Source of the DNA: Candidatus Woesearchaeota archaeon
GTDB lineage: Archaea > Nanobdellota > Nanobdellia > Woesearchaeales > ARS49
Direction of reading: 5' to 3'
NCBI GenBank assembly: GCA_002687275.1
Contig: NYZT01000007.1
Coordinates: forward strand, 1-39,614
Length of the DNA: 39,614 nucleotides
The notes under the pieces are model-generated. The model did not search any database and was not told where the DNA came from. It worked only from the letters and a program-made list of their open reading frames with translations. The stretch's first letter is position 1. Every line of letters begins with the position of its first letter. This document shows positions 1,697-37,557 of the stretch, one piece after another. The position numbers were made by a program, and so were the translations under genes.

Positions 1697-1722
1697 ATTT
1701 TTTATTTTATTTTTTTATTTTC
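1697..1722 (+). terminator. T-rich transcription terminator
   Basis: Immediately after the S-layer stop codon come long runs of T broken by single A residues. Archaeal RNA polymerase terminates at such oligo-T tracts without needing a stem-loop. No convincing hairpin is visible. Confidence 0.6.
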
Positions 1723-1733
1723 ATTATATACGG
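1721..1733 (+). promoter_or_regulatory. TATA box and strong Shine-Dalgarno for the 1755 gene
   Basis: ATTATATAC is centred about 27 bases before the ATG at 1755. In addition GAGGTGAT (1744-1751) is a near-perfect Shine-Dalgarno sequence three bases before the ATG, one of the few clear ones in this window. Confidence 0.5.
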
Positions 1734-1754
1734 TAAAAAAAACGAGGTGATACA

Positions 1755-2408
1755 ATGCTACAAAGAGTTGTAGACTCCATAGTAGGCCCAATAAGTGGTC
1801 TTGCAGGCGGTGTAACAAATGCATTGCCGGGCTTGATTGCAGCAATAGTTGTTCTAATAGTAGGTTATTTCGTAGCCCTGTTAGTTCGCTGGATCGTCCG
1901 ACAAGTGTTAAGTCGCATCAACCTGGATGGCTTTACCAAGCGCTCTGGAGCTGGAAAAGTGTTAGGAGACTTGAAAATAAGTTTCATCCTAGCGGAATTA
2001 AGTAGGTGGTATACATTTATATTATTCCTGCCCCCTGCTGCAGAAGTTATTAGCAGTCGACTAAGTTTGTTGAGTGAATTGTTGTATGGCATCGCGCGAT
2101 GGATCCCTAATTTTATCGCGGCAGTGTTGATTTTAATTGCTGGCTTGATCGCAGCAGAGTATTCTGCAGGCTTGATCGAAAGCACAAAGGCAAAGCACGG
2201 CAAGGGCGTAGCTGGATTAGCTAAGTTCGTCGTTGTGCTATTCACCTTATTGGTGGCCTTGAAACAGATCAACATTGATGTAAGCATTGCAGAAACGAGC
2301 TTTGTGATCGTTTTGGCAGGCATCATGGGAGCCATAGCAATTGGATTTGGTCTAGGATTGAAGGACCATGCCAGCGGCATCATCGGCGACTACAAAAAGC
2401 GGCTCTAA
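1755..2408 (+). CDS. Mechanosensitive-channel-like TM-helix-repeat membrane protein
   Basis: An integral membrane protein of 217 residues. Hydrophobic helices lie at about residues 25-47, 83-100, 112-133, 155-172 and 180-203. The first helix and its flank (PGLIAAIVVLIVGYFVA, then a basic turn with LSRINLDGF) match the conserved TM-helix repeat found in CmpX-type and MscS-related proteins. The soluble beta-domain of true MscS channels is absent, so an osmotic-release role is inference from the family. The start is fixed by the Shine-Dalgarno three bases upstream. T-rich DNA follows the stop, so it looks monocistronic. Confidence 0.7.
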   Translation: MLQRVVDSIVGPISGLAGGVTNALPGLIAAIVVLIVGYFVALLVRWIVRQVLSRINLDGFTKRSGAGKVLGDLKISFILAELSRWYTFILFLPPAAEVISSRLSLLSELLYGIARWIPNFIAAVLILIAGLIAAEYSAGLIESTKAKHGKGVAGLAKFVVVLFTLLVALKQINIDVSIAETSFVIVLAGIMGAIAIGFGLGLKDHASGIIGDYKKRL

Positions 2409-2415
2409 GCCGTAA

Positions 2416-2440
2416 TTTTTTACTTTTTTTTTCTTATTTT
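2416..2440 (+). terminator. T-rich transcription terminator
   Basis: Several oligo-T runs directly after the channel-like gene, the same design as after the S-layer gene. Confidence 0.55.
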
Positions 2441-2448
2441 CAGTAATG

Positions 2449-2458
2449 TTTTAATATC
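2449..2458 (+). promoter_or_regulatory. TATA box for the GINS gene
   Basis: TTTTAATATC is centred about 26 bases before the ATG at 2479, the spacing of a leaderless archaeal transcript. Confidence 0.5.
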
Positions 2459-2478
2459 CTATTCTTTCACTCCTTTCC

Positions 2479-3075
2479 ATGGCAGGGGATGTAGTCGTCA
2501 CGTTTGAGACCCTATTTGATCTAGCAAGAAAAGAAAAAGACACTCTAGAACTGCAAAAAATCGATCCTAGCTTCTTCCAGGAGGCAAGCACCTATCTTGC
2601 GGACAAGCAAAGAATGCTCACCAACGCTAATACTAAGAAAAGCCTGTTCTCAGAGCAAGAGTCAGAACAACTAACCACCCAGGTGGCAAACATCAAGAAA
2701 ATGCTACGAGACCTATACGATAGAAGACAGAAAAAAGTGCTCGAAATGGCGCTTTCTAAGGCTAAGACAGACGCTGTCATCAGCCTCCAAGCCATGCTGC
2801 CACCAGAAAAAGGACTGTATGAAGAGTTTTTGAAAATGCTCAAACAAGACCGAGAGGTCGTGCTAAACAAGCTACTCACGGGCACTCCTAGCCCTGCAAA
2901 AGAGGAGCATCCAGAACCAGAAGAAGGAGTCCTGCTAAAATTCGTCGAACACGTTGATTCCTTCGTTGGGAAGGAGCTAGAAGAATACGGACCCTACGAG
3001 GCAGACCAAACCGCCAAACTACCAGAAGAGGTAGCAAAAGTTTTAATTACTTCCGGCAAGGCAGTAGAAGCATGA
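2479..3075 (+). CDS. GINS complex subunit, Gins51 (Gins15) type
   Basis: GINS joins the MCM helicase and Cdc45/RecJ in the archaeal replicative CMG complex. The 198-residue protein has the Gins51/Sld5 domain order. A helical A domain spans about residues 1-125 and contains the conserved stretch LYDRRQKKVLEMAL. A small B domain lies near the C-terminus, with FVEHVDSFVGKELEEYGPY and LPEEVAKVLITSGKA. A charged linker of about 20 residues joins them. The A-then-B order separates Gins51 from Gins23. The stop overlaps the start of the next gene as ATGA, so the two are translationally coupled. Confidence 0.85.
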   Translation: MAGDVVVTFETLFDLARKEKDTLELQKIDPSFFQEASTYLADKQRMLTNANTKKSLFSEQESEQLTTQVANIKKMLRDLYDRRQKKVLEMALSKAKTDAVISLQAMLPPEKGLYEEFLKMLKQDREVVLNKLLTGTPSPAKEEHPEPEEGVLLKFVEHVDSFVGKELEEYGPYEADQTAKLPEEVAKVLITSGKAVEA

Positions 3076-5901: not shown

Positions 5902-6633
5902 ATGTGGAAGGTTTCTTTTACCCAAAAACCCAAGCTAGACAAACCCTTGCTAATCGAGGGATTGCCCGGCGTTGGCAACGTGGCAAAAATAGCTGCAGAC
6001 TTCCTAGCAGAACAGGTGGGAGCAGAACTATGTGCCACCTTCACAAGCGACCAGCTCCACCACGCAGTCTTTGTTAACGACAAGAACCTCGTCGAGCCAC
6101 CCGTGATAGAGCTCTACTGCAAGAAACGGCCAAAACAACAGGACCTATTGTTCTTGCTAGGAGACGTCCAACCTTTTGACGAGGTAGGAACGCTCTCACT
6201 AGGAGAAGCAGTGCTTAAGACATTCAAGCAATTTGGAGGGAGCCAAGTCGTAACCCTTGGTGGGGTGGCCACAGAACAAGAGCCCAAGCAACCAAAGGTG
6301 TACTGTACAGGAACCCAAAAAAAGATTGTTGGCGAATACGCAAAACTGACCGGTGTGACAAACAATCTTTACGGTGTTGTCGGCCCCATCGTTGGCATCA
6401 CTGGCGTTCTCTTAGGGCTAGCGGAAACAAAAAAGATCCCTGCCGTAACGCTACTCGCGGAAACACACGCCCACCCCGCAGCCCTCGGTGTTGCGGGCGG
6501 GAAAAAGCTAGTGGACGTGCTAGCAAAACGCCTAAAAATGTCTATCAACACGGGATTGCTAGCCGAAAGCTTTGAGCTCCCCAAGTTCGTCACCAATGTA
6601 AAGAACCCTGAAGAAAATCACTACATTGGCTAG
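5902..6633 (+). CDS. PAC2 family protein (proteasome assembly chaperone-like)
   Basis: A 243-residue cytosolic protein of the PAC2 family, related to eukaryotic proteasome assembly chaperone 2. The family signature is at the start (PLLIEGLPGVGNVAKIAADFL), followed by an alternating alpha/beta core with VVTLGGVAT and GPIVGITGVLLGLA, and PAVTLLAETHAHP before a C-terminal helix. Archaeal members usually follow Nop10, as here. A role in assembling the proteasome, whose alpha subunit is encoded at 35212, is inference from the family. The stop overlaps that of the convergent LivK-like gene by four bases (CTAG). Confidence 0.85.
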   Translation: MWKVSFTQKPKLDKPLLIEGLPGVGNVAKIAADFLAEQVGAELCATFTSDQLHHAVFVNDKNLVEPPVIELYCKKRPKQQDLLFLLGDVQPFDEVGTLSLGEAVLKTFKQFGGSQVVTLGGVATEQEPKQPKVYCTGTQKKIVGEYAKLTGVTNNLYGVVGPIVGITGVLLGLAETKKIPAVTLLAETHAHPAALGVAGGKKLVDVLAKRLKMSINTGLLAESFELPKFVTNVKNPEENHYIG

Positions 6634-7733
6634 CCAAGATCGTAATAGTTCCCGCTCACCAGGTCCAAGACGCCCTTTTCTGACACTTGCTTAGGACACA
6701 TCGGAAACACCATCTCTCCCTGGCTGTCCGCGCTGACCGTGCCGACAGTGCTCGCAAAGTCTTTCACCGTTGCCAGCCCGTCTCGGATCTCAGCGCGCTC
6801 GTTTCCTCGACGAGAAACAGCGTCTTTGATGACCATCACGCTGTCATAGCCAAACGTGGTGAAAAAGCCAGGATAGTGCTCATACTTTGCCATGAACTTC
6901 GCTAGGTACTCACCAGGCATGGCGTCCAGGCAGAACGCGCTCGTGTACGCTGCGACATCGTGCTTTGCCATGGCTGCAACACCGTTAGGCGTGGCAATCG
7001 TGCCTACCGCAAGCAAAGGAATGTCGAGCATGTCTAGTACGGCCATCTGGTCCATGGCGTTCGTGATCTGATTCTCGATGCCGATGATATACAACGCATC
7101 AGGCTGTGCTTGCTTGATCTTCAATAATGGTGTTGAGTAGTCCCATTCTGTGTAGGTTATGGCTTCTGCGGTTAGGATCTCACCGCCTTTTTTCTCAACA
7201 ATCTTTGTAAACACGTCACGATAGCTATGGCCAAATAACTCATCAACGTACAGGATGGCAATCCTCTTGAAGCCAAGCTTGTCCACTGCGTAGCCTGCAA
7301 TCACTGGGCTGTCAGAATCTGCGTTTGTAAACAAGCGAAAGATGTGGTCTCCTTCAGCAGGAATCTGACTGGCCGATGCAACTGTTGCCAGCAATGGCAC
7401 TTTCTGCTCCTGGGCTATTGGCGTTACCGAAAGCGTTGCGCTGGACTCTATAACCACATCTGGAGCAAACGTTGCCAGGAGACTATGCAAAGCAGCAACG
7501 GTGGCTGCCCTGTCTCCTCTACCATCCTCAAAGCGAATCTCTACTAACTTGCCATCAATGCCACCTTGGGCGTTGATCTCTTCTTGTGCCAACAACACGC
7601 CTTGCTGCACCTCCTCTCCAATGTAGGATGCAACCCCTGTCAACGGGGCGATCACGCCAATCTTGACGGTGTCTGCCTGTCCGCCGCAGCCAGCGATGAG
7701 CAGTAAGACTATGAATAATGATGCTTTTTTCAT
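6630..7733 (-). CDS. LivK-like branched-chain amino-acid/urea-type ABC substrate-binding lipoprotein
   Basis: A periplasmic-binding-type protein of 367 residues anchored by lipid. The N-terminus is a short basic start, a hydrophobic stretch and a lipobox ending in IAGC (Cys about residue 16). The mature part begins TVKIGVIAPLTGVASYIGEE, the hallmark of the LivK/AmiC family, with GGIDGKLVEIRFEDGRGD next, then two Rossmann-like lobes. The ligand could be an amino acid, amide or other small polar molecule. No permease or ATPase genes are nearby, so it may be an orphan receptor or use distant components. It is divergent from a TrmB regulator and shares its promoter core. Confidence 0.9.
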   Translation of the reverse strand: MKKASLFIVLLLIAGCGGQADTVKIGVIAPLTGVASYIGEEVQQGVLLAQEEINAQGGIDGKLVEIRFEDGRGDRAATVAALHSLLATFAPDVVIESSATLSVTPIAQEQKVPLLATVASASQIPAEGDHIFRLFTNADSDSPVIAGYAVDKLGFKRIAILYVDELFGHSYRDVFTKIVEKKGGEILTAEAITYTEWDYSTPLLKIKQAQPDALYIIGIENQITNAMDQMAVLDMLDIPLLAVGTIATPNGVAAMAKHDVAAYTSAFCLDAMPGEYLAKFMAKYEHYPGFFTTFGYDSVMVIKDAVSRRGNERAEIRDGLATVKDFASTVGTVSADSQGEMVFPMCPKQVSEKGVLDLVSGNYYDLG

Positions 7734-7753
7734 AATGTACTCTAAACAAACAC

Positions 7754-7767
7754 AATATTTAAGTATT
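7754..7767. promoter_or_regulatory. Near-palindromic TATA element shared by livK-like and trmB genes
   Basis: AATATTTAAGTATT reads nearly the same on both strands. It is about 28 bases from the LivK-like ATG (7733) and about 30 from the TrmB ATG (7791). It is the only good TATA-like sequence in the 57-base gap, so it probably serves both directions. Confidence 0.5.
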
Positions 7768-7790
7768 ATTCACCTCTCAAGGGGGTAGTA

Positions 7791-8522
7791 ATGGTTGCTG
7801 AGCTGTTAAAAGAGATAGGGCTAACAGAACGAGAGTCAAAGGTATACCTCTCCCTTCTAGACCTGGGAAGAAGCACCACCGGACCCCTAATCAAGGCAAG
7901 CGGCGTCCCCAACTCCAAAATCTACGAAATACTCTCCAGCCTACACAAAAAAGGACTCGTCACCTGGGTGATAGGAGGAAAAACAAAATTCTTCGAAGCT
8001 GCAGAGCCAAAAACACTCCTACGGTTGTTTGACCAAAAGCGAAGAACGCTAGCAAACATGCTGCCAGAACTCGAGGCAAGGAAGAGCAGGGCAAAAAGCC
8101 CACAATCCGTCTCCCTCTTCGAAGGCTTTCCTGCCATCCGCAACTTGTTCATCGATCTCGTCTCTCAAGCAGGCAACACCACGCTCTATGGTATTACGAC
8201 CGCAGACTGGATCGAAAACCAAATGGTGGGCGATTTTTACTCATGGTACGCAAACCTAAAACAAGAATACAACGTCACCAGCAGGCTTCTCGTGAGCAAG
8301 AAAAACTGGACCGCCTTCAAAAAACGCTACCACTCCATGAAGGCCTTGCCCTACTGGGAGGCTAGACCTAGCCGTGTCTCTTTCCCAGGGGATGTGGGCA
8401 TTACGGGGGATGACGTGCTCATAATCAACTGGGATGAGGTGCCAACCGCCATCCTCATCCAGAGCAAATGGCTTGCCAACCAATACATGCAGTTCTTCAA
8501 AGAGGCCTGGAGCCCGTCGTAA
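7791..8522 (+). CDS. TrmB-family transcriptional regulator
   Basis: A sugar-sensing-type archaeal regulator of 243 residues. An N-terminal winged helix-turn-helix (about 1-75) shows the family pattern LLKEIGLTERESKVYLSLLD, then SGVPNSKIYEILSSLHKKGL and a wing; a linker helix (about 78-105) leads to the ligand-binding region with VSLFEG and LYGITTADW. Divergent transcription from the LivK-like gene across a 57-base gap suggests it controls that gene and itself (inference). A G-rich GGGGGT lies about 5 bases before the ATG. Confidence 0.85.
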   Translation: MVAELLKEIGLTERESKVYLSLLDLGRSTTGPLIKASGVPNSKIYEILSSLHKKGLVTWVIGGKTKFFEAAEPKTLLRLFDQKRRTLANMLPELEARKSRAKSPQSVSLFEGFPAIRNLFIDLVSQAGNTTLYGITTADWIENQMVGDFYSWYANLKQEYNVTSRLLVSKKNWTAFKKRYHSMKALPYWEARPSRVSFPGDVGITGDDVLIINWDEVPTAILIQSKWLANQYMQFFKEAWSPS

Positions 8523-21117: not shown

Positions 21118-21420
21118 TTACTCCAGGCCAAGTCGGTCTGAAATCTCTTGCTGGATCTTTTCTTGCACTTGATTGACTCTCAGGGTGCCGTCTGCGACCA
21201 TTACTTTTTGTCTTCCGTTCGTATGTTCGGACACTAGGGTGGTGGATCGAGGCACTTCGTCTTTCTCATGTGGTGGATCTTTGTGTGTGATGCGGTACAC
21301 CCACACTATTGTCCCGTCTTGGTACGGCCCTAGTCCTTCACTGTCCATGTAGTGGTAGTGTTCTTGGAGAAATGATCCCAACCACTTTAGAGGTCCTGGA
21401 CCTTCGTACACGGTTTCCAT
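21118..21420 (-). CDS. Protein of unknown function coupled to a beta-barrel-like gene
   Basis: A 100-residue soluble protein beginning METVYEGPGPLKWLGSFLQ, with a Trp/Tyr-rich first half (GTIVWVYRITHKD) and a charged helical end (VQEKIQQEISDRLGLE). No signal peptide or Cys. I recognise no family. The start overlaps the preceding stop (TGATG), so it is translated together with the exported protein upstream and may act on it (inference). Confidence 0.65.
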   Translation of the reverse strand: METVYEGPGPLKWLGSFLQEHYHYMDSEGLGPYQDGTIVWVYRITHKDPPHEKDEVPRSTTLVSEHTNGRQKVMVADGTLRVNQVQEKIQQEISDRLGLE

Positions 21421-22103
21421 CAGAAGTTGTACCTCAGTATTACTTGTCCTAGATAGCCGCCGTCGATGTCTTTGTTGATGCGGAACTCGGCGTGAGGCTT
21501 GCCTTTGACTGGGAAGTATTTGCGTAGCACGCCTATGGCTGCTCGCTTGTTCTCTCCCTTGACGTGCGTGTTTCTGAAACCAACGCCTGCCTCCCAGGTC
21601 TTGGAAAGCTTGCCACCCACCACAAGGCTTGTCTTGTAGGAGTTGGGTGCTCTGAGACCTTTGTCTGGCAGTGGAAAGTTACCTTGGACGGCGACGTCTG
21701 CCTCGAACTTGTCGTCTAGGAAAGTTTTGGTTGCAAACAAGCCTGCTCTGACTGTGGTTCTTTCTGAGCTAACCTTGCCTGTTGGTAGTGTTGCGCCGGC
21801 AAAGCTGTTGTAGTGGAAGCTGCCATGATCGCCTCTTGGTCCTGCGATGACGGTAAGATCGCCTGTGCCTTCCTTGTCCTTGGCCCACACATATGGTTGG
21901 CTGACAACGACCCATTTGTTCTTGTCCCAGTACTTGATCGCGATGTTCGTGCTGGTGCTTTTCTTGTCCACGTTGTGGGTGGTCACGTTCTGTAGTTGGA
22001 GATTCGTTGGTCCTTTCTGTCCTATGCGTAGGCCGTCTGCAGCTAGAGGTGTAGCCATGAGCGCTGCCATGGCTAGGTTTTTTGCTTTGTTGATGAGTTT
22101 CAT
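21420..22103 (-). CDS. Secreted protein resembling an outer-membrane beta-barrel
   Basis: A 227-residue exported protein. A signal peptide covers about residues 1-22 (basic start, AMAALMATPLAA). The rest alternates polar and non-polar residues in strand-length units with Gly/aromatic borders. The segment from GTGDLTVIAGPRG to FAGATLPTGK strongly recalls bacterial porin-like barrels of the phenol-degradation MetA (PF13557) type, where GDL and LPTG are hallmarks. The last residues, GQVILRYNF, have the terminal aromatic pattern of barrel proteins. This is surprising in an archaeon; homology is judged by eye only. Divergent from a TrmB regulator and coupled to the 100-residue protein. Confidence 0.6.
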   Translation of the reverse strand: MKLINKAKNLAMAALMATPLAADGLRIGQKGPTNLQLQNVTTHNVDKKSTSTNIAIKYWDKNKWVVVSQPYVWAKDKEGTGDLTVIAGPRGDHGSFHYNSFAGATLPTGKVSSERTTVRAGLFATKTFLDDKFEADVAVQGNFPLPDKGLRAPNSYKTSLVVGGKLSKTWEAGVGFRNTHVKGENKRAAIGVLRKYFPVKGKPHAEFRINKDIDGGYLGQVILRYNF

Positions 22104-22157
22104 GCTGTTTCAGAATCACTAGTAAGTTATAACCTTTCGTGGTATCATAACAACACC

Positions 22158-22169
22158 ATATTTATATAC
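22158..22169 (+). promoter_or_regulatory. TATA box for the second trmB gene
   Basis: ATATTTATATAC is centred 26 bases before the ATG at 22190. The 86-base divergent gap also carries a minus-strand GGTTATAACTT for the barrel-like gene. Confidence 0.5.
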
Positions 22170-22189: not shown

Positions 22190-22927
22190 ATGCGCTTGGG
22201 TATGTTAAGAGAGTTAGGACTCTCTGACGGAGAGATCAAGGTGTATGGTGCCTTGCTAGACATAGGGCAGTCCCCGCTAAACCGCATCCATGAAAAGACA
22301 GGAATTGAAAGAAGAAACATCTATGACATTCTGAACAAGCTTATCGAGCGCGGCCTGGTTTCGTATGTTACCGAAAACAGGCGAAGGTTGTTCCAGCTGG
22401 CCAACCCTGGCCGATTGGTTGGGTATGTGGATGAAAAAATGTTGGATCTGGAACGCACAAAGAAGGATGTACAAACGTTAGTTCCAGAAATAACAAAAAA
22501 GTTCAACGCAGAAAAGCCCGCTATTGATGCTGAGTTGTTCACGAGCGAGGAAGGGGTTAAAGCGGTCTGGGAGGCGTGCCTGGACCACAAAAAGATCTAC
22601 TTCATTGCAGCAGGCAGGTACTGGCCCATCCACAAGCCACACTATTTTGCGAGTTGGATGCGTCGTAGGCTAGCCAAAAAAATACCGCTGTTTAATCTCT
22701 TGCGTCAGGAGAACGTTAAGGATTTCAAACCTTATCCTTTGGAAAAGGTGCGTTTCCTCCCTAAGGCGTTCAGCGGCCACCCTAACGTCATCTTCTTGTA
22801 TGGGGATTATGTGGCCAACGTCATGTTGCATGACCAACCGTTCGCTTTTGTCATAAGAAACAAACAGATTGCTGAGAACTACAAAAAGTATTTTGATTTC
22901 TTATGGAAGCAGTCTACCGCACCGTGA
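22190..22927 (+). CDS. TrmB-family transcriptional regulator, second copy
   Basis: A 245-residue paralog of the regulator at 7791. The winged helix region is MLRELGLSDGEIKVYGALLDIG with IERRNIYDILNKLIERGLVSY, then a coiled linker (about 85-110) and a ligand-sensing region with FTSEEGVKAVWEACL and FIAAGRYWP. The C-terminal effector part differs from the first copy, suggesting a different ligand. By position it could control the divergent barrel-like operon (inference). Its 3' end overlaps the convergent lipoprotein gene by 14 bases. Confidence 0.85.
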   Translation: MRLGMLRELGLSDGEIKVYGALLDIGQSPLNRIHEKTGIERRNIYDILNKLIERGLVSYVTENRRRLFQLANPGRLVGYVDEKMLDLERTKKDVQTLVPEITKKFNAEKPAIDAELFTSEEGVKAVWEACLDHKKIYFIAAGRYWPIHKPHYFASWMRRRLAKKIPLFNLLRQENVKDFKPYPLEKVRFLPKAFSGHPNVIFLYGDYVANVMLHDQPFAFVIRNKQIAENYKKYFDFLWKQSTAP

Positions 22928-23883: not shown

Positions 23884-24624
23884 TTATAAGCTTTTGCGGT
23901 AGATATAGAGTCCTGCTAGGAACACAGGAATGGTCAGCCATTGTCCCATGGTCAGGGGCCCGATCATGCCTAGTTGGACGTCTGGTTGGCGGACAAACTC
24001 TACCAAGAAACGGAACACGCTGTACAGCATCATGAACACTGCTAGCCTATTGTTCTTGGTCTTTAGCAACACCAAAAAAATGAACAGGTTGTAGCCTACT
24101 TCGTACAGTTGCGAGGGGTGTCTTGCTCCCTCCACCCCTGGAAAGAAAACCGCCCATGCAACATCTGAGACACGACCATACAGCTCTCCGTTGATGAAAT
24201 TGCCCATTCTGCCTAGGGCTTGGGCAAGGCTTAAGGGGACTACGACGACATGGGCGAGCTTCCAAAAGCGAATGTCGTACTTTTTGCACACCCACCAGGT
24301 GGCGAGTATCGCGCCTACCAGCCCGCCATGGAAGCTGAGTCCTCCTTGCCAGACCGCGGCAACCTTCAACGGGTTAGATATATAGTATGAAAGGTTGTAG
24401 AAGATAACATAGAATAGCCGTGCGCCAACAACGATTGATAACGTTAGCCACAGCATGACGTCCTCAACCTGTTTTGGGGTAAGGTCTAGTTCCTTATCCT
24501 TGACTGCTTTTTTCAAAAAATACTGGACTATGAAAAATGCCAGCACCCACATAACGCCATACCAGCGAATCTGGAAAAAACCAAGATTCAGGGCTACAGG
24601 GTCAAGCGCGTGCGTCCATGCCAT
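23884..24624 (-). CDS. lgt: Prolipoprotein diacylglyceryl transferase (bacterial-type Lgt)
   Basis: Transfers diacylglycerol from a phospholipid to the lipobox Cys of exported prolipoproteins. The 246-residue protein has about seven membrane helices and the full Lgt signature: WQGGLSFHGGLVGAI with the essential His, LGRMGNFINGELYGR with the key Arg, Asn and Glu, and GARHPSQLYE. Most archaea lack Lgt, so transfer from bacteria is likely (inference). Candidate substrates in this window are the proteins at 6630, 14554 and 22914. A TATA box AGCTTTTATACG lies about 26 bases before the start; it is 7 bases after the preceding gene. Confidence 0.93.
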   Translation of the reverse strand: MAWTHALDPVALNLGFFQIRWYGVMWVLAFFIVQYFLKKAVKDKELDLTPKQVEDVMLWLTLSIVVGARLFYVIFYNLSYYISNPLKVAAVWQGGLSFHGGLVGAILATWWVCKKYDIRFWKLAHVVVVPLSLAQALGRMGNFINGELYGRVSDVAWAVFFPGVEGARHPSQLYEVGYNLFIFLVLLKTKNNRLAVFMMLYSVFRFLVEFVRQPDVQLGMIGPLTMGQWLTIPVFLAGLYIYRKSL

Positions 24625-29765: not shown

Positions 29766-32639
29766 ATGACCCAGCATCAGACGCCTTTTGCAGTAACCGC
29801 GCTGGTCAGTCTTGTCGCGCTGGCAGGTCTGTACAGCCTGGTAAACCCTGTTCCTACGGGCTTGCAAGGCTTAGACTTGGATCTGGACTTGGACCTGGAT
29901 TTAGACCTGGATTTAGACCTAGACTCAGAACTAGCAGGGACAAAGGCTGACACGGACTCGTGTACGCTGACTGCTGCAGACTGCCCAGAACTGTGCGCCA
30001 TGTGCGATTCAGAATCAACAGGAGGTGGCTGTGTCAGTGGAGTGGATGCTGGCTCTTGCTCTTGTAAGCAACCTCCGCTCTGTATTCCTAAAGTCAAAGA
30101 TCAGGTTGATCTCAACAAGGAAGTCCTTATCACGAAAAAGACCGAGACTAAAGAAAAAGCGATGCCGCCGCCTTACGAAGACTGCAACACGTGCAACGCG
30201 TGCGGACCGGGCATGGAAGGAGGAGGGTGTTCGAGATTTGATCCCGTGGCTCAAGCGTGTACGATTCCTCCACCTTGCGTTCCTTCACGATGCGGCCTGA
30301 CCGATCGCGACTGCCCTGCCTACTGTCAAGACTGCCCTCCAGGATTCATGAGTGGCGGTTGTGTCAAAGGCGTGGACAAGCGAACGTGTGCGTGTAAAGA
30401 ACCCTCACCATGCTTTGACGAGAGAACAAAAGAAGAAAAGCGGTGCAGGCCTGCAGGAGGCATCTGGCGACGATTTATTGATGACTGCACAGACACGTGT
30501 GACCATGCTCAAGGGCTGCGAACCGGTTGTGCGTTTGGTATAACAAAAGGTTGCGATTGTGGCAGGAACAAGTGCTGGACAGGCTTCCAGTGCGAGCCTA
30601 ACGGCATGCCCAAGAAATCAACCATCCCGTGCAACGATGACCGAGACTGCCCAGTATTATCCTGCGTGCAAGCTCCCTGCCCCTTCCACGTGTGCAGAAA
30701 CGGGTATTGTGAGGTCACCAACAGACCGCTAGACCCTCCTAAGAATGCGTGTGAACGTGAAGGGTACAAGTGTACCTCGCCGATAAGAGGTTGCGGCCAT
30801 TACGGGTCGTACACGCTAGCCTGTGGTGGCGGCGCCCAGTGCTGTGAAGACATCCCCCGATGCGGAGACGGCGTGTGCTTCCGGCATGACACGCCGGGCT
30901 ATGGCGAGGACTCTGAAAAATGTCCACAGGACTGCCCATACATCCATCCAAAGAGACAATTCACGATAAAGGGAAAGATATTCTCTGCAGAGACAGCCAA
31001 GCCACTCTCTGGCGTCACCATCTTCACTAAGAGCATAGACGGAAGATCCGTTGATCCTATCAAAACCAAATCTGATGGGTCCTTCTCCTATATGGTGGAC
31101 GAGCTGACCATGATGCACCTGTCTTCCCGTTGCCTGGACCAGATTGCCGTGCACTTCAGCGGAGACAAGGCGGAGTGGAACGATGGTCTGTGCATGAACG
31201 ACGGACACACCGTCCATTCTGATAATGAGTTTGACCTGGGCTCGATCAACGTGCGACAGGCCACAAGCATCGGCCTGTACACTGACGAGCCGGCTTCCTT
31301 TGAGATCAACGTGGATCCGAACGCAGAGTGTTCTGATCGGGGAGGGGCAGGCAATGGAAGAAAGAAGAACGTGCACCGCCTCAACCAAGTTATTCTTCCT
31401 GGCCGCGACATCCGGCTACAGTTGCGTACTGCTGACGACGAGCGCGTGAAAAGCCCGGTGTACTCGGTTCCCCGTGATATTGGTTGCAACCAACTTTCTG
31501 CAAGCTACATCCTGGACGTGTGGACCTTTGACATCTGCGGCAACAACCAGTGTGGGGCTGGCGAAGATCGCATCTGTCCGGAGGATTGTGAAATGGAGAT
31601 AGTCCTCCCTGTTGAGACTAAGAGGCCGCCCTCACCCCTAAATCACGTGCTGGATCGCATCATTCAAAATCCTGCAGAGTACAAGATCATCCTGCCATCG
31701 GGAACAGGCATGACCTCGGTCATCAAAGCCGCCTCTGACGTGGCTGCCCAGCTAGACATCGTCAACACCGCGATGGACACGGACAAAACGCCCAATATTG
31801 AGAACACCGCAATCGTGCTCAGCGTGTATGACAAGAAAAATCACGAAGCATCTAACAAGCTAGCAAAACTGTCTTTGACCGGAAACAGGCTGACGGCAGA
31901 CGTCCAAAAGGTGGTTGTGGAATTGCTGGACAAGGGCAGAACCGTGGTGTACGGGGACAATCATGACAATCTGGTGGTGCTAGCCTCAAGCACGTCTCGA
32001 CTTGCCTCTGTGGTGAGGAAACTCTCTCCCTTAATCAGAAACAAGAATTATCCAGGAAGCGCGATAGAGCTCAAAGGTAGCAAGTTTGTACCTATAGAGA
32101 TCGTTGAAGAAGCAGAAGAGGAAGAAGAGGCAGACGATGACGTGGATGATCCTGTGGACCCTCAGTTCATTCTTGACTTTGTAAAGAAGGCCATCAAAGA
32201 AAAGTATCCTGTTGTTATTGGCAGCAAGGCGTCTTCTGCTGACAACATCGCAGCCATTGACATTCGCGGCAAGTTCAAGCTTCCGCTAAAAACAGACGCT
32301 AGTTTCATCACAAAAAATCCCGGCATTCTCCTGGGCGGACCTTGTAGTAACCGTGCCACAGCTAACGTGGCCGACCTCCCCTTCCGTGGTGGCAGGGCGC
32401 ATGCCGACTGTGCCAAGGACTTCAAGGCAGACCTGAGAGTTATAATCTTGAAGGATAATCACTTGGTTATCATGGGTACTACTGCGTTTGACACGAGGAT
32501 GGCTGCAAAGGCAGCGGTCTCTGACGAGACCACGATTAAAGATGTTTTCGCTACGTCAGATAGTGTCCTCGTAACGGGTACAAGCTTTGACGATCTTGCT
32601 GTGGTTGACGTGGCAAGCATGTTCGCTAGTCAACCGTAA
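29766..32639 (+). CDS. Giant Cys-rich surface protein with S-layer-like C-terminus (957 residues)
   Basis: An exported protein: N-terminal hydrophobic helix (about 9-27), then nine Leu-Asp pairs (about 36-53), then Cys-rich segments (about 65-400) including C-x-DDRDCP, CGDGVC with CPQDCP, and GxCVxGVD repeats. Residues about 400-455 (FTIKGKIFSAETAKPLSGVT and SDGSFSYMV) fit a carboxypeptidase-regulatory-like beta domain. A second CGNNQC/CPEDC motif follows at about 595-615. The C-terminal third has S-layer character: a strongly acidic stretch, then ILLGGPCSNRATANV and a TAFDTRMAAKAAV ending, matching the C-terminal pattern of the S-layer protein at 2-1696. It may be built into the lattice as a projecting adhesin (inference). 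Confidence 0.75.
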   Translation: MTQHQTPFAVTALVSLVALAGLYSLVNPVPTGLQGLDLDLDLDLDLDLDLDLDSELAGTKADTDSCTLTAADCPELCAMCDSESTGGGCVSGVDAGSCSCKQPPLCIPKVKDQVDLNKEVLITKKTETKEKAMPPPYEDCNTCNACGPGMEGGGCSRFDPVAQACTIPPPCVPSRCGLTDRDCPAYCQDCPPGFMSGGCVKGVDKRTCACKEPSPCFDERTKEEKRCRPAGGIWRRFIDDCTDTCDHAQGLRTGCAFGITKGCDCGRNKCWTGFQCEPNGMPKKSTIPCNDDRDCPVLSCVQAPCPFHVCRNGYCEVTNRPLDPPKNACEREGYKCTSPIRGCGHYGSYTLACGGGAQCCEDIPRCGDGVCFRHDTPGYGEDSEKCPQDCPYIHPKRQFTIKGKIFSAETAKPLSGVTIFTKSIDGRSVDPIKTKSDGSFSYMVDELTMMHLSSRCLDQIAVHFSGDKAEWNDGLCMNDGHTVHSDNEFDLGSINVRQATSIGLYTDEPASFEINVDPNAECSDRGGAGNGRKKNVHRLNQVILPGRDIRLQLRTADDERVKSPVYSVPRDIGCNQLSASYILDVWTFDICGNNQCGAGEDRICPEDCEMEIVLPVETKRPPSPLNHVLDRIIQNPAEYKIILPSGTGMTSVIKAASDVAAQLDIVNTAMDTDKTPNIENTAIVLSVYDKKNHEASNKLAKLSLTGNRLTADVQKVVVELLDKGRTVVYGDNHDNLVVLASSTSRLASVVRKLSPLIRNKNYPGSAIELKGSKFVPIEIVEEAEEEEEADDDVDDPVDPQFILDFVKKAIKEKYPVVIGSKASSADNIAAIDIRGKFKLPLKTDASFITKNPGILLGGPCSNRATANVADLPFRGGRAHADCAKDFKADLRVIILKDNHLVIMGTTAFDTRMAAKAAVSDETTIKDVFATSDSVLVTGTSFDDLAVVDVASMFASQP
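29871..29924 (+). repeat. (Leu-Asp)9 coding repeat
   Basis: Nine consecutive TTR/CTN-GAY hexamers encode alternating Leu and Asp directly after the membrane anchor. Codons vary among copies (TTA, TTG, CTG, CTA; GAC, GAT), indicating selection on protein sequence rather than very recent slippage. Confidence 0.9.
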
Positions 32640-36378: not shown

Positions 36379-36483
36379 AAACGCCTGTACAAAGGACTAA
36401 CCTATCTGTTGGCGAAATACCAACTCTTAACACTCATAAAAAAGATATATTCTGAAGACTAAATGGGGTTGAATTTAGGAAGA

Positions 36484-36495
36484 TTTAAATATAAG
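36484..36495 (+). promoter_or_regulatory. TATA box for the (DPxP)-repeat surface protein
   Basis: TTTAAATATAAG is centred 27 bases before the ATG at 36517, which selects that start over the in-frame ATG at 36463. Confidence 0.5.
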
Positions 36496-36516
36496 TTTTT
36501 TTTAAGAAACACGTTT

Positions 36517-37557
36517 ATGACAAAAGAAAATAGTTTTATGGTTATCGCTGTTGTTTTTATTGTAGGTGTTGCCATAGGCGCAGGTCTTAATGGTGGTGGT
36601 TTTGTTGGTAATGTAGGATCTGCTCTTCCTACTACTGATCCTATACCCGATCCTTTGCCGGATCCTATACCTGATCCTATACCTGACCCTGTGCCTGACC
36701 CAGTACCGGACCCTGTACCCGATCCTATACCTGATCCTGTACCTGAAGGGGATTCAACAAATCAAGTTGGCGATCCTCAACTTTGTCTAGAAGGAGAATA
36801 TGAGGTCATGCGAGATGGAATTGTAGAAAAATGTTTTTCTGGTTTTGCAAGCCTCCAAGAGTATGTTGAGGCTGAATCTCCTAGATTACAATTTTGTAAC
36901 GGCGCTGATCCCGACGCTAACCTTGGTTACGAATCATACTGGGTGTATCAACAAGCTGGAGGCACTCTTAACCAGGGAAATATATGTGTAAAATCTTCAG
37001 AAAGAACGTGTAACAACGATGGCGTATGTGCAAAATTCGAAGGAACTGAAAATGCGGCTAGTTGTCCAAATGATTGTAAGTTATCATGTGTAGAACATGA
37101 AGTAAAGGCATCCTGTGAAGATTATGGAAATGGAAATCCTTGTAGTGATCCATCAACACGAGGTAATTGTACAACTACCGACAAATATGGAATTGGTGGT
37201 GAAGAATGCTGTATAATGCAACCACATTGTGGGGATGGAGACTGTAATAGTGCAAATAATGTAGAAAGTGAATATTCTTGTCCGGACGATTGCCCTCGTG
37301 TTCGTAGAGAAAAATGTAATTCTCCCTTAGGGGATCGTCAGTGGGATTATTTATGCACGTCTGGACAAGAACTCTGTGATTGCTACTCTTTATCAGAGGT
37401 GCAGGCTATAATTCAGGGATCACCAAGTCTAAAGACAGCTAATTTTCCTTATGAAGGGACGTGTGATGAGACGACTACCCTTGACATCCCTGGTTTGCCT
37501 TCGAGTAGGTACAATATGAAATGTGTTGACTACGCAAAGGTATTAGCTATTCAGTAA
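36517..37557 (+). CDS. Cys-rich surface protein with (Asp-Pro-x-Pro) repeats, in AT-rich cassette
   Basis: A 346-residue exported protein: anchor helix at about residues 8-25 (MVIAVVFIVGVAIGAG), nine Asp-Pro-x-Pro tetrapeptides as a rigid spacer (about 41-76), then Cys-rich segments including CNNDGVC with CPNDC and CGDGDC with CPDDCP, motifs also in the 957-residue protein. No enzyme domain is seen. Codons are A/T-ending, unlike the flanking genes, and the gene lies between two direct repeats, so it probably arrived by transfer. Function is likely surface attachment or variation (inference). Confidence 0.75.
   Translation: MTKENSFMVIAVVFIVGVAIGAGLNGGGFVGNVGSALPTTDPIPDPLPDPIPDPIPDPVPDPVPDPVPDPIPDPVPEGDSTNQVGDPQLCLEGEYEVMRDGIVEKCFSGFASLQEYVEAESPRLQFCNGADPDANLGYESYWVYQQAGGTLNQGNICVKSSERTCNNDGVCAKFEGTENAASCPNDCKLSCVEHEVKASCEDYGNGNPCSDPSTRGNCTTTDKYGIGGEECCIMQPHCGDGDCNSANNVESEYSCPDDCPRVRREKCNSPLGDRQWDYLCTSGQELCDCYSLSEVQAIIQGSPSLKTANFPYEGTCDETTTLDIPGLPSSRYNMKCVDYAKVLAIQ
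36637..36744 (+). repeat. Nine 12-base repeats coding Asp-Pro-x-Pro
   Basis: Consecutive GAY-CCN-RTN/TTG-CCN units, such as GATCCTATACCT, encode DPIP, DPLP or DPVP. Exact identity among some units points to slippage-prone DNA and possible length variation. Confidence 0.9.

Follow-up and report, generated by a model that had tools for sequence, protein, structure and literature searches.

A Predicted Exported β-Barrel Protein Related to COG4313 Channels and Its TrmB-family Partner Gene in Woesearchaeota

The 39,614-nucleotide stretch of Candidatus Woesearchaeota archaeon DNA analyzed here, referred to below as the window, is contig C7 of a 1.09-Mb genome with a completeness of 89.5%. One of its genes is predicted to encode a conserved, exported all-β protein (hereafter the window protein), and it is highly probable that this protein is a barrel of COG4313 ancestry. 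The fuller account that we favor, in which a barrel of COG4313 descent is controlled by the TrmB-family regulator and handles hydrophobic molecules in an extracellular lipid layer, appears to us about evenly balanced between being right and wrong. A regulated and widespread barrel family in small archaea that have no detectable assembly machine would mean an unrecognized outer layer, barrels placed in the membranes of others, or secreted folds put to a new use, and each of these three outcomes bears on how these archaea acquire lipids and interact with partners. The features of the locus are collected in Table 1.

Table 1. Features of the barrel locus, with positions numbered along the window
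Feature	Position	Strand	Basis or detail
Exported COG4313-like β-barrel protein gene (predicted)	21420..22103	-	227 aa, ATG start; sister-species conservation, distant homology
Putative signal peptide, residues 1-22, cleavage ...LAA↓DGL	22038..22103	-	Assigned by eye; fast-evolving
Mature N terminus DGLRIGQKGPTNLQL, family pattern D-x-x-x-x-G-x-R-G-P-x-x-x-Q; candidate lumen plug	21993..22037	-	19-sequence alignment
Residues 81-110, G-D82-L-T84 ... P107-T108-G109-K, matching Pput2725 cluster residues	21774..21863	-	Alignment against the published residue list
Last strand GYLGQVILRYNF, outer-membrane-type C-terminal signature	21423..21458	-	Signature test
Small ORF downstream of the barrel gene	21118..21420	-	Its ATG overlaps the barrel stop codon (TGATG)
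Putative TATA-like box GTTATAAC of the barrel gene, 23 nt before its start codon	22126..22133	-	Sequence reading
Operator-like inverted repeat TGGTATCATAACAACACCA, 19 bp, between the divergent promoters	22140..22158	.	Unique in the genome
Putative TATA-like box TTTATATA of the regulator gene, about 22 nt before its start codon, adjoining the operator-like repeat	22161..22168	+	Sequence reading
TrmB-family regulator gene, divergent from the barrel gene	22190..22927	+	PF01978 52.7 bits, cut-off 25.6

The barrel gene and its relatives

A sister species of the same genus, a Woesearchaeota MAG that comes from the eastern tropical North Pacific, has an ortholog of the barrel gene with 73% identity and the same flanking genes. 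Comparison of the mature regions of the two orthologs by the Nei-Gojobori method gave a dN of 0.146 and a dS of 1.06 (dN/dS about 0.14), and the syntenic ortholog together with this low ratio indicates that the open reading frame is a real gene under purifying selection. The signal segment showed a pN of 0.38 versus 0.13 in the mature part. The initial annotation had assigned a signal peptide to the protein, and this assignment agrees with inspection of the sequence, which has a signal-like N terminus ending in LAA↓D, and with the conserved Sec-type cleavage motifs A-x-A↓D of the relatives, e.g. AQA↓D and ANA↓D. Five barrels that form part of a second subgroup (L018, L020, L022, L023 and L026) carry an N-terminal extension of about 50 residues before A-x-A↓D, longer than an ordinary signal peptide. 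The small open reading frame downstream of the barrel gene was rejected as a part of the module; among the compared loci it is present only in this genus.

A profile made from two sequences retrieved four remote homologues belonging to other families of the order, and iteration of the profile search extended the family to 22 and then to 25 of the 353 genomes of the order (21 of 220 genera), mostly with one copy per genome, and to one further genome in another order of the class. Scans of IMG/VR returned no relatives of the barrel protein, and the PHROGs and plasmid searches gave no match. Two early matches, a weak one to NCBIfam asnS and the first one obtained with phmmer (a pilin), were dismissed as chance.

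The initial annotation had also likened the protein to PF13557 barrels. No direct match of the window protein to PF13557 was obtained (Pfam cut-off, 22 bits), its sole Pfam signal being a weak one to the barrel domain YaiO (E 0.049), whereas the likeness was borne out by its relatives. PF13557 was found above the cut-off in three loci of the order, L007 (37.9 bits), L030 (43.7 bits) and L032 (22.6 bits; the same gene as L024, which scores 24.3 bits), and in L073 from the other order (29.3 bits). The L007 protein, retrieved by the two-sequence profile with an E-value of 7e-15, shows 26% identity with the window protein (alignment A3). Moreover, a profile of the window group aligned with a profile of the PF13557-like group (L019, L024 and L030, signal peptides removed) with a score of 88 over 205 columns; the controls scored at most 19 in 60 column shuffles and 13 when reversed. 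This profile-profile comparison ties the window protein to the PF13557 homologues; having no match of its own and being shorter, it counts as a remote relative and not as a filed member of PF13557.

Strand pattern and likeness to solved outer-membrane channels

Family profiles were compared with the 177,635 distinct sequences of a PDB target set. The best match of profile A5 was 4RL8, a COG4313 outer-membrane channel, with an E-value of 0.0035 (next match, E 0.49). Profile A4, from which the PF13557-like group had been left out, had three matches in all, two to CymA (E 0.044 and 0.05) and one to EspP (E 0.14). Profile A7, made from the window's own subgroup plus L073, and the six-sequence profile A3 matched nothing in this set. 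The A5 and A4 searches were thus both led by outer-membrane barrels, and the β-sandwich devoid of barrel matches that had been named as the outcome contrary to a barrel was not seen. The similarity to the barrel domains of CymA and EspP (PDB 4d51, 4d5b and 2qom), which belong to families different from that of the window protein, is weak, covers the barrel region and has borderline E-values; a DALI search in the Pput2725 paper gave EspP as the fold closest to Pput2725.

The COG4313/PF13557 channels, among them Pput2725 (PDB 4RL8), TcpY and SphA, share with the window protein profile-level similarity and export. They differ from it in being bacterial and in their mature length of 270-320 aa, compared with about 205 aa for the window protein, which is archaeal, lacks a detectable Omp85 and has a TrmB-family regulator. 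The solved structure of Pput2725 shows a barrel of 12 strands whose lumen is plugged, with detergent bound, and a lateral cluster of conserved residues, Asp92, Thr94, Pro119, Thr120, Gly121, Tyr123, Asn130, Asn134 and Asn166, was proposed to be an exit for hydrophobic molecules. In the alignment of A5 with 4RL8, in which the chain numbering is that of the paper plus one, residues D82, T84, P107, T108 and G109 of the window protein correspond to Asp92, Thr94, Pro119, Thr120 and Gly121, and hence the Asp-x-Thr and Pro-Thr-Gly motifs of the GDL...LPTG segment singled out by the initial annotation (in full, GTGDLTV...TLPTG) fall on the lateral cluster of a solved COG4313 channel. The remaining four of the nine cluster residues (Tyr123, Asn130, Asn134 and Asn166) are lost in the window protein, and some loops are trimmed relative to the COG4313 channel.

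The N termini are also alike. In Pput2725, about 14 N-terminal residues, with a conserved Gly6, plug the lumen, and the window protein likewise has a short N-terminal segment with a conserved glycine before the first strand. Provided that cleavage follows residue 22, this glycine occupies mature position 6; it is one of three residues of this region (G28, P32 and Q36) that are invariant in the alignment of 19 sequences, and the RGP-Q segment is conserved. The segment is thereby a candidate lumen plug, although the likeness in Gly6 is suggestive only.

The family alignment showed an elevated hydrophobic periodicity at 180 degrees (z 2.3), with no such elevation at 100 degrees (z -1.5), and about 12 short strands could be traced by eye (residues 35-45, 48-60, 63-75, 81-94, 96-109, 116-128, 132-146, 152-167, 169-181, 185-198, 203-213 and 215-227). 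The protein ends in VILRYNF, i.e. with the C-terminal aromatic strand of outer-membrane β-barrels. A strict form of this signature, with F, W or Y as last residue, hydrophobic residues at -3 and -5 and a hydrophobic residue or Ala at -7, was found in only 2 of the 1101 ORFs of the genome, the barrel protein being the sole exported-looking one, and a C-terminal Phe is present in 12 of 22 barrel-family members as against 2.9% of the genome ORFs. Two further statements made from the sequence at the outset, those of an alternating strand pattern and of a barrel-like LRYNF end, are therefore upheld, the former by a periodicity above chance and the latter by the rarity of the strict signature in the genome and the frequency of the final F in the family. 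An AlphaFold model of the barrel protein from two sequences was uninformative (pLDDT 32), so that the closed barrel is predicted from homology; the strand number and the plug are likewise predictions from sequence.

The missing direct family match of the window protein and the lack of a usable structure model would also fit an unrelated β-sandwich or repeat protein that resembles barrels by chance. Such a look-alike is nevertheless very improbable given the four relatives above the PF13557 cut-off, a profile match far above that of the shuffles, and outer-membrane barrels leading two of three family-profile PDB searches (A5 and A4, with A7 matching nothing). Alternatively, a barrel-derived fold could now act extracellularly, either as an adhesin or by binding hydrophobic molecules in soluble or surface-attached form, in keeping with a protein shorter than the COG4313 channels, with partly trimmed loops and four of nine lateral-cluster residues lost, in a cell that has no known outer membrane and in which Omp85 was not found. 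Across the family, however, the C-terminal strand has stayed of membrane type and the hydrophobic alternation has been retained, and we consider such a conversion quite unlikely.

The divergent TrmB-family gene and the intergenic repeat

The gene divergent from the barrel gene encodes a regulator assigned to the TrmB family by its N-terminal winged helix, which scored above the PF01978 cut-off; no effector-binding domain was recognized in it by Pfam. A divergent TrmB-family gene lies upstream of the barrel gene, within 2.4 kb, in 21 of 22 loci, and the remaining locus has a contig end nearby. The same pair was present in L030, L032 and L073, which were examined apart, and no other cluster of neighboring genes occurred in more than 5 of the 22 barrel loci. 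Because the surroundings are several and unrelated, it is the barrel-TrmB pair itself that appears to be kept. This TrmB-family archaeal regulator is thus paired with a barrel gene and not with a sugar transporter, and sphA, too, has been described as controlled by a neighbor-numbered transcription factor (SphR, PA5324/PA5325).

Bacterial contamination of the assembly, which the bacterial type of the protein might suggest, was rejected and has a negligible chance of being correct, since the gene order is identical in two independently assembled species, barrel genes are embedded in contigs as long as 1.0 Mb and 1.47 Mb in other genomes of the order and in a two-contig genome of 0.8 Mb of another order, and the TrmB partner adjoins the barrel gene in nearly all loci. 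The window contig is archaeal by content, with exosome Rrp4/Rrp41/Rrp42-like, proteasome alpha-like and L44e-like genes.

A search of the genome that allowed up to 3 mismatches recovered the operator-like repeat only at its site between the two genes, which suggests that the regulator acts purely locally. A similar repeat occupies the same intergenic position in L003, L061, L065, L066 and L067, and the conserved inverted repeat of the window's group, TGGTGTTGTTATGATACCA when read toward the barrel gene, is flanked by the two TATA-like boxes. That this repeat overlaps the promoter side of the regulator gene suggests self-repression plus control of the barrel gene; the regulator would bind the 19-bp repeat and switch both the barrel gene and its own.

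Other gene arrangements with TrmB-family members were observed. In L028, a TrmB-family gene stands beside a gene (1698-2798, reverse strand) for a different exported, strand-rich protein of 367 aa that ends in VVVDLDYKF and has no Pfam match, possibly a second barrel type with the same regulatory pairing. The TrmB gene is preceded by two conserved small genes in L054, L058, L059, L068 and L070, and one of these small genes matches a nucleotidyltransferase domain at a sub-threshold score. The window itself contains a second divergent pair (6630-8522), made up of a TrmB-like regulator (7791-8522, forward strand) and a lipobox substrate-binding protein (6630-7733, reverse strand).

Possible site of action and lipid context

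β-Barrels of this type are a hallmark of bacterial and organelle outer membranes, and no outer membrane is known from archaea of this kind. The absence of a Bam system expected by the initial annotation accords with the searches for Omp85/BamA (PF01103), which was above the cut-off in none of 28 barrel-bearing genomes: 27 of them gave nothing at E-values up to 1, and the 10.5 bits obtained in G203 fell short of the cut-off of 24, which 7 of 14 controls did pass. Similarly, PF13505 (OMP_b-brl) was above the cut-off in none of 23 barrel-bearing genomes, with a sub-threshold score of 16.1 bits in G328. Because neither Omp85 nor PF13505 was above its cut-off in these genomes, it is unlikely that they have a general outer membrane served by the usual assembly line.

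The archaeon might still own a second, outer lipid layer in which the barrel, inserted without Bam, serves as a specialized channel, a reading that the genuine barrel ancestry and Sec export favor and that recalls the double-membrane archaea discussed in passages of the literature (PMC4243693). We regard it as unlikely in view of the single barrel candidate that the C-terminal signature singles out in the genome and of the negative OMP_b-brl and Omp85 searches; in addition, a family that is present in about 7% of the order's genomes and mostly has a single copy in each would be odd for a basic part of the envelope. As Omp85 was not found and this is the sole barrel candidate seen in the genome, delivery outside the cell is likelier than a general archaeal outer membrane.

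In the account that we favor, that of a barrel delivered outside the cell, the protein would be exported by Sec and cleaved after LAA, and its short conserved N terminus would plug a barrel of about 12 short strands, the last one of outer-membrane type. The barrel would then reach a lipid layer outside the cell, either the envelope of a partner or vesicles, where hydrophobic or amphipathic molecules would pass or partition through its wall as in the bacterial COG4313 channels. That the barrel serves hydrophobic molecules has a chance only a little short of even, and its residence in a foreign membrane is somewhat doubtful. A more specific proposal, that host-dependent archaea without a Bam system of their own export the TrmB-controlled barrel, which inserts into a diderm bacterial partner's envelope or vesicles and so moves lipids or other hydrophobic molecules to the archaeon, is speculative and, as a whole, unlikely. 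PopA of Bdellovibrio, a porin-like barrel, was reported to be moved from the predator into the membrane of another cell (PMC12228718); it has 16 strands and is oligomeric, and it is likened to the window protein as a functional precedent only. No description of such a barrel family in Woesearchaeota was found in the literature searched, the nearest being one sentence in which the PopA authors mention a possible distant relative in the DPANN Altiarchaeales (PMC12228718).

Genes for lipid synthesis were also searched. GGGP synthase and HMG-CoA reductase were not found by Pfam in the source or the sister genome, and crude motif scans of the genome did not clearly reveal UbiA, CDP-alcohol transferase or UPP synthase; judging from this gene content, the usual route to archaeal lipids is probably closed to the source archaeon. 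The apparent lack of the first two enzymes makes a dependence on outside lipids possible, and uptake of host lipids has been documented for a DPANN symbiont. Synthesis by another route is possible as well, since MEP-pathway and bacterial-type fatty-acid genes were described in Woesearchaeota in a paper on DPANN archaea of oxygen-deficient zones. A correlation between the barrel and the missing lipid-synthesis genes was sought and not found: most barrel-free relatives also miss GGGP synthase and HMG-CoA reductase, so that the link of the barrel to lipids is not specific and represents an opportunity, not proof.

The window also encodes a bacterial-type prolipoprotein diacylglyceryl transferase, Lgt (23884-24624, reverse strand; PF01790, 246 bits), with a sister copy in L003 (3481-4221), and about 30 lipobox-like ORFs are present in the genome. 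The membrane lipids of the source archaeon deserve attention because bacterial Lgt uses phosphatidylglycerol. Finally, two regions of the window (29766-32639 and 36463-37557) encode large exported proteins that are rich in Cys and carry, close to the N terminus, stretches of near-perfect Leu-Asp and Pro-Asp-Pro dipeptide repeats.
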